Under the pieces are notes generated by a model that saw nothing but the letters and a program-made list of their open reading frames with translations, was not told the DNA's origin and ran no database searches. A stretch of DNA of 54,757 nucleotides from Bacillus sp. AZ43 (GTDB taxonomy: Bacteria > Actinomycetota > Actinomycetes > Mycobacteriales > Geodermatophilaceae): contig SPQJ01000028.1 of the NCBI GenBank assembly GCA_004570425.1, forward strand, positions 1 through 54,757, given 5' to 3'. This document shows, in pieces, positions 23,486-28,092 of this stretch. Both the position numbers and the translations under genes were made by a program. The number at the start of each line of letters is the position of its first letter. Position 1 is the first letter of the stretch.

Positions 23486-24673
23486 GTGACCCGCGCGCCG
23501 TACCTGTCCTCCCGCCTGCAGGGCTTCGGGACGACGGTGTTCGCGGAGATGAGCGCGCTGGCGCTGGCCACCGGATCGGTCAACCTCGGCCAGGGCTTTC
23601 CCGACTACCCCGGCCCGCCCGAGGTCCTCGACGTCGCCCGCGCGGCCATCGGCACGGCCGCCGACCAGTATCCGCCCGGGCCCGGCATCCCCGAGCTGCG
23701 CGCCGCTGTCAGCGAGCACGTCGAGCGCTTCCGCGGGCTCGCCTACGACCCCGACACGGAGGTCCTGGTGACCGCCGGGGCGACCGAGGCGCTGTCGGCC
23801 GCGCTGCTCGCGCTGCTCGAGACCGGCGACGAGGTCGTGCTGTTCGAGCCGATGTACGACTGCTACGCCGCCGGGATCGCCATGGCCGGCGCCGTTCCGC
23901 GCCCCGTCCCGCTGCGCCCGCCCGCGGAGGGCGCCGGCCCGTGGACCTGCGACCCGGACGAGCTGCGCGCGGCCATCACCCCGCGCACCCGGATGCTGCT
24001 GGTCAACACCCCGCACAACCCCACGGGGAAGGTCTTCACCGCCGAGGAGCTCGGCGAGCTGGCCGCGCTCGCGATCGAGCACGACCTGCTGGTCCTCACC
24101 GACGAGGTCTACGAGCACCTGGTGTTCGACGGCGCGGCGCACGTCCCGATGGCGGGCCTCCCCGGCATGCGCGACCGCACGATCATGGTGAGCAGCGCCG
24201 GCAAGACGTTCAACGTCACCGGCTGGAAGATCGGCTGGATCTGCGGCCCGCCGCCGCTGGTCTCCGCCGTCCGGACGGCGAAGCAGTTCCTCACCTACGT
24301 CAACGGCGGGCCCTTCCAGCCCGCCGTCGCCGCGGGCCTGGCGCTGCCCGACGGGTACTTCGCGGAAGCGGCCCGCGACCTGCAGTACCGCCGCGACGTC
24401 CTGGTCCAGGGCCTCGCCGACGCCGGCCTGCCCGTGATCAGCCCGCAGGCCACCTACTTCGCGACCGTCGACGTCCGGCCGGTGCAGCCCGACGGCGACG
24501 GGCTGGCGTTCTGCCGGTCGCTGCCCGAGCGCGCCGGCGTCGTCGCCGTCCCCACCGTGGTCTTCTACTCACCGGAGCACGCGCACCTGGGGCGGCACCT
24601 GGTCCGGTTCGCGTTCTGCAAGAGCGACGCCGTGCTCGGCGAGGCCGTCGAGCGGCTGAGGAGGCTGGGATGA
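23486..24673 (+). CDS. PLP-dependent aminotransferase class I/II (YbdL/kynurenine-type)
   Basis: 395 residues, fold type I aminotransferase. Family blocks: NLGQGFPDYPGPPEVLD, NTPHNPTGKVF (Asn), TDEVYEHLVFDG (Asp/Tyr), SSAGKTFNVTGWKIGW with the Schiff-base Lys, and VRFAFCKSD near the C-terminus. These signatures match methionine/glutamine-type transaminases (YbdL, kynurenine aminotransferase, glutamine transaminase K). Its stop overlaps the omega-amidase-like gene (ATGA), suggesting they act in sequence: transamination with glutamine or methionine producing a 2-oxo acid amide that the amidase hydrolyses. GTG 23486; CACGCT lies 6 bases upstream. Confidence 0.92.
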   Translation: MTRAPYLSSRLQGFGTTVFAEMSALALATGSVNLGQGFPDYPGPPEVLDVARAAIGTAADQYPPGPGIPELRAAVSEHVERFRGLAYDPDTEVLVTAGATEALSAALLALLETGDEVVLFEPMYDCYAAGIAMAGAVPRPVPLRPPAEGAGPWTCDPDELRAAITPRTRMLLVNTPHNPTGKVFTAEELGELAALAIEHDLLVLTDEVYEHLVFDGAAHVPMAGLPGMRDRTIMVSSAGKTFNVTGWKIGWICGPPPLVSAVRTAKQFLTYVNGGPFQPAVAAGLALPDGYFAEAARDLQYRRDVLVQGLADAGLPVISPQATYFATVDVRPVQPDGDGLAFCRSLPERAGVVAVPTVVFYSPEHAHLGRHLVRFAFCKSDAVLGEAVERLRRLG

Positions 24674-25431
24674 GGATCGCGGCGGTGCAGCACGACATCG
24701 TCTGGGAGGACCGCGACGCCAACTTCGCGAGGCTCGCGCCCCAGGTCGCCCGGGCCGTCGGCGCGGGCGCGGAGCTGGTGCTGCTCAGCGAGACCTTCAG
24801 CACCGGGTTCTCCATGACCGAGGGGATCGGCGAGCCCGAGGGCGGCCCGTCGGCGCAGTTTCTCCTCGGCCAGGCCGCCGAGCACGGCGTCTGGGTGGGC
24901 GGCAGCTGCCCGGAGATCGCCGAGGGGGAGCAGCTGCCCTACAACTCGTTCGTCCTCGCGGGGCCGGAGGGCACCGTGCACCGCTACCGCAAGCTGCACC
25001 CCTTCACCCACGCCGGCGAGCACGAGCGGTTCCGGGCCGGGGAGAAGCCGGCGACGATCGAGGTCGGCGGCCTGCGGATCACCCCGTTCATCTGCTACGA
25101 CCTGCGCTTCGCCAACGTGTTCTGGGAGGCCGCCGCGCACACCGACGTCTACCTCGTGCCCGCGAACTGGCCCAGCCCGCGGCGTCTGCACTGGCAGACC
25201 CTGCTGCAGGCCCGCGCCATCGAGAACCAGGCCTACGTCGTCGGCTGCAACCGGGTGGGGACGGCGGGCGACGGCACCGAGCACGCCGGCGACAGCCGGA
25301 TCGTCAGCCCGATGGGCGAGCTGCTGGCCACCGCGGCCGGCGTCGAGACGATCGTGCTCGCCGACGTCGACCCGGCCGAGGTGACCGCCACCCGTGACCG
25401 GCTCCGGTTCATCCCCGACCGCCGAGGTTGA
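24670..25431 (+). CDS. carbon-nitrogen hydrolase, omega-amidase (YafV) type
   Basis: 253 residues, nitrilase superfamily. Catalytic triad Glu in LLSETFSTGF, Lys in YRKLHPF, Cys in FICYDLRF; ANWPSPRRLHWQTLL and ARAIENQAYVVG are typical of the omega-amidase/YafV branch. Such enzymes hydrolyse 2-oxoglutaramate or 2-oxosuccinamate. ATG 24670 overlaps the aminotransferase stop by 4 bases, so the pair is co-translated. Known glutamine transaminase/omega-amidase coupling in methionine salvage supports the assignment. Confidence 0.9.
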   Translation: MRIAAVQHDIVWEDRDANFARLAPQVARAVGAGAELVLLSETFSTGFSMTEGIGEPEGGPSAQFLLGQAAEHGVWVGGSCPEIAEGEQLPYNSFVLAGPEGTVHRYRKLHPFTHAGEHERFRAGEKPATIEVGGLRITPFICYDLRFANVFWEAAAHTDVYLVPANWPSPRRLHWQTLLQARAIENQAYVVGCNRVGTAGDGTEHAGDSRIVSPMGELLATAAGVETIVLADVDPAEVTATRDRLRFIPDRRG

Positions 25432-25463
25432 ACCGGCCCCTCCCATCGGCCGCACCGGGGCCC

Positions 25464-25469
25464 TAGCGT
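25464..25469 (+). promoter_or_regulatory. -10 box (TAGCGT), leaderless-type, for NhaA fusion
   Basis: TAGCGT, then seven bases, then GTG 25477, with no ribosome binding site. Confidence 0.45.
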
Positions 25470-25476
25470 TCCCGGG

Positions 25477-28092
25477 GTGAGCACAGTGACCGGGGCGAGC
25501 CGGACCCGATCCGCCCACCTGCCGGCGCAGCTGTCGGCCCCGGTGCGGCGGCTGATGAGCTCGGGCGTCGCCGGGGCGGGGCTGATGGTGGTGGCCACCG
25601 TCGTGGCCCTCGTCTGGGCCAACTCCCCGTGGGGCGCGGCCTACGACGAGCTCTGGCACAGCGAGTTCGCCGTGCGGTTCGGCACGAACGAGATCGCGAT
25701 GGACCTGCAGCACTGGGTCAACGACGGCCTGATGGTGTTCTTCTTCTTCCTCATCGGGATGGAGGTCCGCCGCGAGCTCTCGATGGGCGAGCTCGTGCAG
25801 CGCAGCCGGCTGACCGCGCCCGCGCTCGCCGCCGTCGCCGGCCTGGTCGTCCCGGCGCTGATCTACCTGGCGATCAACGCCGGCGGCGAGGGTGCCGTCG
25901 GCTGGGGCATCCCGATGGCCACCGACACCGCCTTCGTCCTGGGTGCCCTGGCCGTGTTCGGCCAGCACGCGCCCATCCAGCTGCGGGTCTTCCTGCTCTC
26001 GCTGTCGGTGGTCGACGACATCGGCGCGCTCAGCGCGATCGCGATCTTCTACTCCGAGGAGATCGACCTGGTCGCTCTCGGCATCGCGGCGCTGTGCGTG
26101 CTGGCCTTCATCGGGCTCTCCCGCATGCAGGTGTGGCGCGGGCCGGCCTACTTCGCCGTCGGTGCGGTGATGTGGGTGGCCATGCACGCCTCCGGCGTGC
26201 ACGCGACGATCGGCGGCGTCGTCCTGGGCCTGCTGGTCAGCGCCTACCCGCCGCGCCGGGCCGAGGTCGAGCGCGCCGGCTCGCTGGCCCGCGCCTTCCG
26301 CCAGTCGCCGGAGGCGGCGCTGGCCCGCGAGGCCAAGCTGTCGGTGGAGCGCGCCATCTCCCCGAACGAGCGGATCGGCGCGGTCCTCGTGCCGTGGAGC
26401 AGCTACGTGGTGGTGCCGGTGTTCGCGCTGGCCAACGCCGGCGTCCGCATCGACGGCGACCTGCTGGAGCGGGCGCTCACCTCGCCGGTGACGATCGGTG
26501 TCTTCCTCGGCCTGGCCGTGGGCAAGCTGCTCGGCGTCGGGCTCGCCGCGACCCTCGTCGTGCGGCTGCGGCTGGGCGCCCTGCCGCCCGGCGTGAACCT
26601 CGGCAGCGTCTGGAGCGGCGCGGCCCTCACCGGCCTGGGGTTCACCGTCTCGCTGTTCGTCACCGACCTGGCCTTCGACGACGAGCGCCTCCGCGAGGAG
26701 GCGACCGTCGGCATCCTGGCCGCCGCGGTCGTCTCGACCGTCCTGGGCGCGGTCTTCTTCCGCCTGCTGGGTCGTGGCGGCGGGCGTCCGGAGCGGCCGC
26801 TGCTGCTGCAGCCGCCGGTCGACCCGGCGGTCGACCACATCCGGGGCCGGGCCGACGCGCCGCTCACGCTCGTCGAGTACGGGGACATGGAATGCCCCTT
26901 CTGCGGTCGCGCCACCGGCGTCGTGGCCGAGCTGCGGGAGCGCTTCGGCGACGACCTGCGCTACGTCTTCCGGCACCTGCCGCTGGTCGACGTCCACCCG
27001 CACGCGCAGCTGGCCGCGGAGGCCGTCGAGGCCGCCGGCGCGCAGGGGAAGTTCTGGCAGATGCACGACAAGCTCTTCGCCCACCAGGACGCGCTCGAGG
27101 GGCCCGACCTGCTCGACCACGCATCGGCCCTGGGGCTGGACCTCGAGCGGTTCGCCCGGGAGCTCGGTGACGGCACCCACGCCCAGCGGATCCGGGACGA
27201 CGTCGCCGGCGCCGAGGCCAGCGGGGTCGAGGGGACGCCCACCTTCTTCGTGAACGGCGTCCGGCACACCGGCCGGGCCGGCACCGACGAGCTCGCCGCG
27301 GCCCTGCTCCGCAGCGACCCGCGCGGCACGCCCGTGGAGCGGTCCGTCGCCGAGCCGGCCCCGCGGGTCCGGCCGCCGTCGCCGGTGACCCCGCCGGCCC
27401 GGCTGCCCGCCGTGGAGGGGCTCGAGGAGACGGTCGATCCGACCGGCGGGTCCCCGCGGCTCGACGAGCGCCAGCTCGCCGTCCTGCGCCGGGCCGGCCG
27501 CCGGCGCCGGACCACCGCCGGGGAGGTGCTGGTCCAGGGCGGCGCCAGCGAGTGGGACTTCGTGGTGGTCCTGGAGGGCACCGCCGCCGTGCTCGAGGAG
27601 CCCGATCCCGCCTCCGGTCACCCGCCGCGGCCGGTGACCGTCGTCGGCCCGGGGCGCTTCCTCGGCGGGCTCAACATGCTCGCCGGCCAGCGCGCCGTCC
27701 GGACGGTGGTGGCGGCGACGCCGGGCGTCGTCGTCACCCTGAGCGTGGAGCGCCTGCGGGAGGTGATGGCCGGCGACCGGGAGCTCGCCGACGTGATCAT
27801 GCGGGCGTTCCTGCTGCGCCGGGCGATGCTGATCGGCAAGGCGTCGGGGATGCGGGTGGTGGGCGACCCGGCCTGGCCGGCCAGCAGCCGGCTGCGGGCG
27901 GTGCTCGACGAGCACGGCGTGACCTACGACTGGCTGGACCCCGCCGAGAACGAGGCGGCGCGGGCGATGCTCGCCGAGAACGACGCCCTCGACGAGGAGC
28001 GTCCGGTCGTCGTCGCCCCGGACGGCCGGGTCCTGGTCGACCCCGACCGCGAGCAGCTGCTGCGGGCCGCCGGGGTGGACCGGGTCGGTTAG
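25477..28092 (+). CDS. nhaA: NhaA Na+/H+ antiporter - DsbA - cyclic-nucleotide-binding - glutaredoxin-like fusion
   Basis: 871 residues in one frame. (1) NhaA, about 20-430: LQHWVNDGLMVFFFFLIGME, PMATDTAFVLG, LSVVDDIGALSAIAIFY (ion-binding Asp pair) and SGVHATIGGVVLGL. (2) DsbA-type thioredoxin, about 445-615, with active site CPFC (Cys473, Cys476) and EGTPTFFVNG with the cis-Pro. (3) Cyclic-nucleotide-binding domain, about 660-790: GEVLVQGGASEWDFVVVLEG, GPGRFLGGLNMLAGQRAVRT. (4) A glutaredoxin-like tail, about 793-871, without cysteines, resembling the segment linking cNMP and reductase domains in some actinobacterial thioredoxin reductases, but the reductase is absent. NhaA-DsbA fusions are known; the two further modules are unusual. 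A cytoplasmic sensor role for redox and ligand is inference. GTG 25477. Confidence 0.9.
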   Translation: MSTVTGASRTRSAHLPAQLSAPVRRLMSSGVAGAGLMVVATVVALVWANSPWGAAYDELWHSEFAVRFGTNEIAMDLQHWVNDGLMVFFFFLIGMEVRRELSMGELVQRSRLTAPALAAVAGLVVPALIYLAINAGGEGAVGWGIPMATDTAFVLGALAVFGQHAPIQLRVFLLSLSVVDDIGALSAIAIFYSEEIDLVALGIAALCVLAFIGLSRMQVWRGPAYFAVGAVMWVAMHASGVHATIGGVVLGLLVSAYPPRRAEVERAGSLARAFRQSPEAALAREAKLSVERAISPNERIGAVLVPWSSYVVVPVFALANAGVRIDGDLLERALTSPVTIGVFLGLAVGKLLGVGLAATLVVRLRLGALPPGVNLGSVWSGAALTGLGFTVSLFVTDLAFDDERLREEATVGILAAAVVSTVLGAVFFRLLGRGGGRPERPLLLQPPVDPAVDHIRGRADAPLTLVEYGDMECPFCGRATGVVAELRERFGDDLRYVFRHLPLVDVHPHAQLAAEAVEAAGAQGKFWQMHDKLFAHQDALEGPDLLDHASALGLDLERFARELGDGTHAQRIRDDVAGAEASGVEGTPTFFVNGVRHTGRAGTDELAAALLRSDPRGTPVERSVAEPAPRVRPPSPVTPPARLPAVEGLEETVDPTGGSPRLDERQLAVLRRAGRRRRTTAGEVLVQGGASEWDFVVVLEGTAAVLEEPDPASGHPPRPVTVVGPGRFLGGLNMLAGQRAVRTVVAATPGVVVTLSVERLREVMAGDRELADVIMRAFLLRRAMLIGKASGMRVVGDPAWPASSRLRAVLDEHGVTYDWLDPAENEAARAMLAENDALDEERPVVVAPDGRVLVDPDREQLLRAAGVDRVG

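Follow-up and report, generated by a model that had tools for sequence, protein, structure and literature searches.

The regulation of NhaA-type Na+/H+ antiporters has been studied mostly through pH. Three other cation antiporters offer precedents for control by cytosolic appendages. In Escherichia coli KefC, the C-terminal cytosolic domains are inhibitory and the soluble protein KefF is needed for full activity (PMC11150392). Plant SOS1 is described as an autoinhibited antiporter that combines a cyclic-nucleotide-binding (CNB)-like domain with a further C-terminal autoinhibitory tail; the arginine expected to contact a cyclic nucleotide is replaced by tyrosine and its authors conclude that no cyclic nucleotide is bound (PMC10372031). 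The exchanger SLC9C1 of sperm carries a CNB domain and responds to cAMP (PMC10620091; PMC6052114). Here we analyze a stretch of 54,757 nucleotides (hereafter the window; contig SPQJ01000028.1 of a soil actinobacterium deposited as Bacillus sp. AZ43, placed in the family Geodermatophilaceae by GTDB), which carries at 25477-28092 on the plus strand a gene for an 871-residue protein. This protein joins an NhaA antiporter, a DsbA-like thioredoxin module, a CNB-fold module and a glutaredoxin (Grx)-like module in a single polypeptide.

It consists of known parts in a new combination, that is an NhaA-DsbA antiporter variant with a conserved tail, and no description of this architecture or of the flavoproteins related to it was found among titles and abstract openings of the open full-text literature. 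NhaA-DsbA fusions are widespread in Actinomycetota and share the first two modules, NhaA followed by a DsbA of the CPFC type. Tail-less loci agree with the window protein to 42-54 percent in NhaA and 51-68 percent in DsbA (43-44 percent for DsbA in loci L077 and L078), but they stop after DsbA whereas the window protein adds the CNB-Grx tail. Modules that alignments identify as homologous to this tail, a CNB and a Cys-poor Grx-like module, stand in the same order in CNB-Grx-flavoproteins that databases list as thioredoxin-disulfide reductases. These proteins continue with a FAD/NAD(P) module, which the window protein lacks in cis; its own CNB-Grx pair has an antiporter in front. By analogy with KefC/KefF we favor the reading that Na+/H+ exchange by this protein is under redox or phosphorelay control, and we give this reading about an even chance of being correct.

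Results

One reading frame encodes four conserved modules

From its GTG start to the stop codon ending at 28092 the frame runs through 871 codons without interruption. The codon-position GC pattern is uniform along its whole length, with third-position values of 0.95-0.99 in each block. When compared with seven orthologues, third codon positions are the most divergent in the NhaA, DsbA, CNB and Grx modules, the exception being the Grx module of the most distant row (L067), in which positions 2 and 3 tie. This excess is inconsistent in the Pro-rich, variable linker in front of the CNB module (aa 617-663, 27325-27465; predicted local distance difference test score, pLDDT, <50 at 617-642), which drifts. 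At least 56 of the 112 genomes of the family, that of the window included, encode the four-module architecture as judged from match ranges; this count and the genome counts given below for gene adjacency and co-occurrence were read by hand from match tables and refer to the matches listed there. Uniform codon-position GC, conservation in the family with intact orthologues and the third-position excess together rule out a frameshift or assembly artefact, the concern voiced in the preliminary description of the locus, which had proposed the continuous four-module frame.

The order NhaA-DsbA-cNMP-Grx-like given in that description was recovered with Pfam, and so was its numbering of the CPFC motif at Cys473/476. 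The protein contains only three cysteines (207, 473 and 476) and its tail is thus Cys-free, again as proposed. An AlphaFold model of the whole protein has a mean pLDDT of 78.9 and a predicted template modelling score (pTM) of 0.49.

A genuine NhaA body carries a DsbA module, probably in the cytosol

The first module (aa 26-427, 25552-26757) matches Na_H_antiport_1 (PF06965) with 437.8 bits against a cut-off of 23.5 and also passes the NCBIfam NhaA model TIGR00773 (331.1 versus 254). Neither the transport domain PF00999 nor an RCK/TrkA_N regulatory domain gave a Pfam match at E <= 1 in the window protein. T149, D150, D180, D181 and K350 are invariant in all 35 aligned fused proteins; the last four align with what we take to be D133, D163, D164 and K300 of E. 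coli NhaA, the roles of these residues being presumed as well. Judged from its sequence, the window protein is almost certainly a genuine NhaA-type antiporter. A gap between two aligned stretches marks an insert relative to E. coli NhaA at about aa 255-291 (26239-26349). The loop at 257-299 is basic, with nine Lys/Arg residues, and is presumably the cytoplasmic loop VIII-IX of the known NhaA topology.

The second module (aa 453-610, 26833-27306) is of the DsbA/BdbD-like thioredoxin type and scores 71.8 bits with Thioredoxin_4 (cut-off 23.2) and 58.4 bits with DSBA (cut-off 25.6). Cys473 and Cys476 of its CPFC motif (26893-26904) and Pro588, taken from its position to be the cis-Pro of the DsbA fold, are each kept in 34 of the 35 aligned fused proteins.

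Hydropathy yields 11 transmembrane segments in the antiporter body and the model adds a membrane-type helix at 222-239, so that by count the body is predicted to span the membrane 12 times. An NhaA protein with 12 transmembrane segments ends inside the cell, just as the C-terminus of E. coli NhaA is cytosolic. This bears on the possibility that the C-terminus lies outside, the fusion serving to link ion exchange with oxidative folding. Such an arrangement would agree with the appearance of BdbD, an exported protein, as a solved DsbA relative in the comparison of the model with known structures. However, no further transmembrane segment lies ahead of DsbA, basic residues stand behind the last one (weak evidence in itself) and a CNB fold outside the cell would be odd. 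We regard an extracytoplasmic DsbA as very unlikely.

Both nucleotide contacts are replaced in the CNB-fold module

The third module (aa about 664-789, 27466-27843) matches cNMP_binding (PF00027) above the cut-off (31.5 versus 27.5 bits, aa 677-765) as well as CNB chains in the PDB (best E 5.5e-5), and the AlphaFold model shows a beta-roll with a C-helix in this region. Its phosphate-binding cassette, RFLGGLNMLAGQRAVRT (aa 727-743, 27655-27705), is degenerate. In the alignment with MlotiK1 (1vp6) the cassette GEMALISGEPRSATV corresponds to GGLNMLAGQRAVRTV in the window protein, with Gly731 at the Glu site and Ala740 at the Arg site. Among the aligned fused proteins (35 in all), Gly takes the Glu site in 20, Glu itself in 14 and Ala in one, while the Arg site holds Ala, Pro, Val or Met and never Arg (0/35). 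Related flavoproteins keep the Glu in 25 of 26 rows; the Arg, as judged by eye, is present in L191 only.

These counts weigh against an antiporter that is opened by cAMP or cGMP bound to its CNB domain in the manner of SLC9C1. The PF00027 match, the SLC9C1-like pairing of antiporter and CNB domain and the Glu retained in 14 fused proteins, the window protein not among them, would speak for it; the Gly or Ala in the remaining 21, the consistent lack of Arg and its absence, as judged by eye, from all but one of the related flavoprotein rows speak against it. Since the cassette Glu and Arg are replaced, nucleotide gating is the least likely of all readings considered and, as far as the sequences tell, an improbable one. 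The preliminary description had suggested ion exchange gated by both redox and nucleotide state. The redox part persists as an element of the reading we favor; the nucleotide part does not.

The tail is related to the N-terminal half of CNB-Grx-flavoproteins

The last module (aa about 790-868, 27844-28080) falls short of the Pfam cut-off for Glutaredoxin (PF00462; 17.8 versus 22.9 bits, aa 798-834). A profile of 17 rows, built from NhaA tails and flavoproteins, matches the mycobacterial glutaredoxin-like protein Rv3198.1 (2lqo) over the whole domain with E 4.7e-9, and the model predicts a beta-alpha-beta-alpha-beta-beta-alpha topology. The assignment of the Grx-like fold rests on this profile and the model because the structure comparison barely covers residues past 791. 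With its low score and without a catalytic Cys, the module is kin to the glutaredoxin/mycoredoxin family at the level of the fold only. Pyr_redox finds no Pfam match in the window protein, the frame of which stops after the Grx-like module.

CNB-(Grx)-flavoproteins are common in Actinomycetota. CNB and flavoprotein modules were found together in 25 of 30 fetched loci (L169-L198), with a Grx-like match between them in 23 of the 25, some of these loci being truncated at a contig end or disrupted by a frame break; most of the proteins contain a Cys-poor Grx-like domain of the same type. In an unrooted tree of the CNB and Grx parts (52 rows), 26 NhaA tails and 26 flavoprotein rows are split by one branch (89/86), and the flavoprotein rows next to the tails number nine, of which eight belong to the class of the window. 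A tree of the CNB part alone resolves the NhaA tails into two groups and sets nine CNB rows from histidine kinases apart (100/99), which rules out that the tail was derived from a CNB-histidine kinase. For these trees, 13 sources had been left out of the alignment (the window copy and 12 loci that repeated one already included or gave pieces, split or weak matches), rows more than 93 percent identical had been dropped (95 to 76) and 15 further near-duplicate NhaA rows had been removed by hand; locus L104 enters the CNB+Grx tree without a Grx part. Trees and alignments argue for homology between the CNB-Grx tail and the N-terminal half of the CNB-Grx-flavoproteins, in keeping with the kinship to cNMP-containing thioredoxin reductases seen at the outset.

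In the tree of the NhaA-DsbA bodies the tailed proteins form three groups among tail-less ones. Forcing them together is rejected in the approximately unbiased test (p 2.8e-61; 35 chosen of 78 rows), so that a single fusion event followed by plain vertical descent is ruled out. On this tree the state of the tail appears to have changed at least three times, by gain, loss or exchange. The tree required long NhaA and DsbA matches, excluded repeats and the more distant NhaA-DsbA loci L077 and L078, and was thinned by similarity from 143 rows to 78.

The four-module architecture is conserved in the family and rare outside it

Among the 56 genomes that encode the architecture, 54 gave a single match (one of these, G014, with an in-frame stop) and two gave matches in pieces (G008 and G032). 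By genus label, the fused gene was found in 8/16 (g1), 6/23 (g2), 22/26 (g3), 19/23 (g9) and 1/1 (g12) genomes; no four-module protein was among the matches listed for the other seven genera of the family. Blastococcus is probably represented by g1 and g2, Geodermatophilus by g3 and Modestobacter by g9. Among 394 genomes sampled across the class, a near-full single-frame match to DsbA-CNB-Grx was obtained in the genome of the window and in G275 only, the latter from another family of which it is the sole carrier among 22 genomes. Named genomes yielded at least 268 confirmed loci, of which the best 80 were analyzed. Eighteen of these 80 contain all four modules (L087-L103 and L120, with L091 split over two frames) and belong to Blastococcus, Modestobacter, Geodermatophilus, Allosalinactinospora lopnorensis and a contig of a Promineifilum (Chloroflexota) metagenome-assembled genome (MAG). 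The architecture is rare outside the family of the window.

Several copies stand out. The Promineifilum gene (L120:4675-7281) is the only one seen outside Actinomycetota, and transfer and binning error are both possible, the binning of MAG contigs being judged from GC only. The syntenic copy in G008 (L084:3230-5876), a congeneric genome assembled as a single contig, is split over three frames, by sequencing error or as a pseudogene. Two paralogues with all four modules occur in Modestobacter caceresii (G085; L027 and L071 / L102); one (69 percent) is of the window type, the other (52 percent) of the Geodermatophilus type.

The tail might be a functionless passenger on an NhaA that serves as a housekeeping Na+ exporter. 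It evolves faster than the body (amino acid identities to L067 are 55 percent for NhaA, 70 for DsbA, 40 for CNB and 26 for Grx), near relatives of the bodies occur without tails and L104, a Solirubrobacterales MAG contig that starts inside the gene, encodes NhaA-DsbA-CNB and stops before a Grx-like module. Against a neutral relic stand the third-position excess in the tails of close orthologues, the retention of the tail in half or more of the family genomes and its presence in three separate body clades. We consider such a relic unlikely.

A response regulator-Grx-flavoprotein and a CNB-histidine kinase are encoded in trans

The preliminary description had called the flavin reductase missing. 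This is correct in cis; in trans, flavoproteins of a related kind are present on other contigs of the same genome, and in part of Geodermatophilus they are encoded directly behind the fused gene. In the genome of the window a flavoprotein with a response regulator receiver domain (REC) and a Grx-like module is encoded on contig C61 (L167:8158-10440, minus strand), followed by a histidine kinase with a CNB domain. A second response regulator-Grx-flavoprotein on C54 is 42 percent identical to the C61 copy.

In 5/5 checked loci (L097, L098, L099 and L101 from named Geodermatophilus, and L068 from g3) the fused gene is followed by genes for a REC-Grx-flavoprotein (L097:7341-9023, L098:7359-9053, L099:7338-9032, L101:7356-9050 and L068:5817-7511) and a CNB-histidine kinase. 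The TGA of the fused gene overlaps the ATG or GTG of the flavoprotein gene by 4 bases, and the TGA of the latter overlaps the start of the kinase gene by the same number, an arrangement that is a usual mark of translational coupling. Of the 22 genomes of g3 with the fused gene, eight have the flavoprotein gene adjacent on the same strand and 13 have it elsewhere, while one yielded none at E <= 1e-100; no adjacency was among the matches listed for the other 34 family genomes with the fused gene. A similar proximity exists without the tail: in 10 of 11 genomes of what is probably the Jiangella group (f22 g56), the flavoprotein gene lies <=1.6 kb downstream of a tail-less NhaA-DsbA gene on the same strand (the two are on different contigs in the eleventh), and the CNB-histidine kinase gene is present in 3/3 of these loci read. 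In Actinotalea (L122) the flavoprotein gene is convergent with NhaA-DsbA. Altogether, a REC-flavoprotein gene occurs within flanks of <=6 kb in eight of the best 80 loci, four from Geodermatophilus, three from Jiangella and one from Actinotalea. The response regulator-Grx-flavoprotein and the CNB-histidine kinase are likely to form a two-component system with an enzyme as output.

A CxxC motif is absent from all 39 flavoproteins inspected, of both REC and CNB type, many of which keep one Cys near the site, and the protein P0005 stays below the NCBIfam cut-off for thioredoxin-disulfide reductase (210 versus 343 bits). The database name thioredoxin-disulfide reductase is therefore misleading. 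The kinship to thioredoxin reductases that had been noted earlier stands for the CNB-Grx homology and fails for the CxxC, and a classical thioredoxin reductase is ruled out as the missing partner.

The flavoprotein could instead reduce the CPFC pair by way of the Grx-like domains, the antiporter being mainly the membrane anchor of a thiol oxidoreductase for other substrates. The Grx-like module shared by transporter tail and flavoprotein, the gene overlap in part of Geodermatophilus and the single Cys that many flavoproteins retain near the lost CxxC site would fit an electron conduit of this kind. Both Grx-like modules are, however, largely Cys-free and the flavoproteins lack CxxC, so that no dithiol relay is visible, and the catalytic residues of NhaA are strictly kept. 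We judge such a conduit distinctly unlikely.

Gene neighborhood

In the window, genes for a class I/II aminotransferase and a carbon-nitrogen hydrolase (23486-25431, plus strand) overlap by 4 bases, and the latter ends 45 bases upstream of the fused gene. Blastococcus loci share as neighbors the aminotransferase, the carbon-nitrogen hydrolase, a PRC/DUF2382 and a CYTH-CHAD protein; in L089 and L090 the distances are altered, the first two genes lying further off. A long minus-strand frame (24565-27915) overlaps the fused gene in this GC-rich DNA and is taken as a by-product. A frame for a UBP-type zinc finger adjoins many CNB-Grx-flavoprotein genes (L079-L083, L172, L173, L184, L186 and L190) and also accompanies the paired genes for REC-flavoprotein and kinase in L098, L122 and L167, the last being the C61 locus of the genome of the window.

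Discussion

The C-terminal arm of the window protein, cytosolic by comparison with E. coli NhaA, is likely to be regulatory. The DsbA-CNB-Grx arm would restrain or release Na+(Li+)/H+ transport by the NhaA exchanger, with the CNB-Grx pair acting free of nucleotide as an autoinhibitory element or docking platform. The CPFC pair may sense the thiol redox state, its oxidation or reduction shifting the balance between resting and active state. The response regulator-Grx-flavoprotein could dock on the arm, probably via the shared Grx-like module, and contribute to this shift in the way KefF acts on KefC; phosphorylation of its receiver domain by the CNB-histidine kinase would place exchange under a signal linked to redox state or NAD(P)H. 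Partner docking and kinase input are suggested by gene order in relatives and by analogy. The complete scheme, a two-component unit in which the kinase acts on a flavoprotein docked on the NhaA arm and, together with the CPFC switch, gates Na+/H+ exchange, is put forward tentatively and with little confidence that all of its links will hold.

Several observations weigh against redox or phosphorelay control. The pTM of the model supports no docking pose, including one of the tail on DsbA. A CNB domain acting as brake is suggested by analogy, and for SOS1 a separate C-terminal tail is named as autoinhibitory. Where an alignment to SOS1 or SLC9C1 extends over both antiporter and CNB domain, the root-mean-square deviation is about 11-14 A, so that these proteins have the same succession of modules in a different arrangement. 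The DsbA module of the Promineifilum copy lacks both catalytic cysteines. Adjacency of fused gene and flavoprotein gene is confined to 8/56 fused family genomes, all from g3, and was seen in none of the eight from g1, the genus label of the window, among the matches listed, which weaker copies may escape. The flavoprotein (E <= 1e-100) occurs in 51/56 family genomes with and 26/56 without the fused gene (Fisher p 4e-7), a co-occurrence that is inflated by kinship and includes some matches to paralogues of 42-46 percent or to partial copies; within genera the ratios are 6/6 versus 6/17 for g2 (p 0.014) and 8/8 versus 5/8 for g1 (p 0.2). Five of the 56 fused genomes (G043, G096, G100, G102 and G103) had no flavoprotein at E <= 1e-100 among the matches listed. 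Finally, REC-flavoproteins are not dedicated partners because they are common without any fused NhaA, at least 178 of the 394 class genomes being matched at E <= 1e-90.

A conserved NhaA family equipped with a CNB-Grx arm as well as a thiol switch would offer a route from redox or kinase signaling to Na+/H+ exchange, and the gene overlap in some Geodermatophilus suggests a link between the control of salt or pH and redox signaling. The actinobacterial hosts of the protein inhabit stone and desert. If the two-component scheme is true, it represents a two-component system that targets a transporter instead of genes, and it would unite flavoprotein control of the KefF type with a bacterial equivalent of SOS1 control that works without nucleotide.

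Comparison with described antiporters

When the model was compared with known structures, SOS1, SLC9C1 and KefC were listed among the antiporters behind NhaA and NapA; with SOS1 and the SLC9 proteins, the likeness lies in the general fold of the antiporter and in module order. KefC, likewise a cation/H+ antiporter, is kept inactive by its C-terminal cytosolic domains and depends on a soluble, NADH-binding partner for full activity; the window protein would be controlled in a similar way. KefC differs in its selectivity for K+, in having an RCK domain in place of DsbA-CNB-Grx and in its signal, glutathione and its adducts; KefF itself is presumably unrelated to the response regulator-Grx-flavoprotein. 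SLC9C1 is an animal protein outside the NhaA family with a voltage sensor and a response to cAMP. Plant SOS1 has a cytosolic CNB-like domain that has lost the Arg, as has the window protein. On the other hand, it belongs to CPA1, carries an alpha-CTD instead of DsbA and a separate autoinhibitory tail, lacks a Grx-like domain and is activated by phosphorylation. SOS1 is nevertheless a better analogue than the nucleotide-gated exchangers, and the parallel with the eukaryotic proteins SOS1 and SLC9C1 suggests that CNB folds have joined antiporters repeatedly, with and without the binding of a nucleotide.

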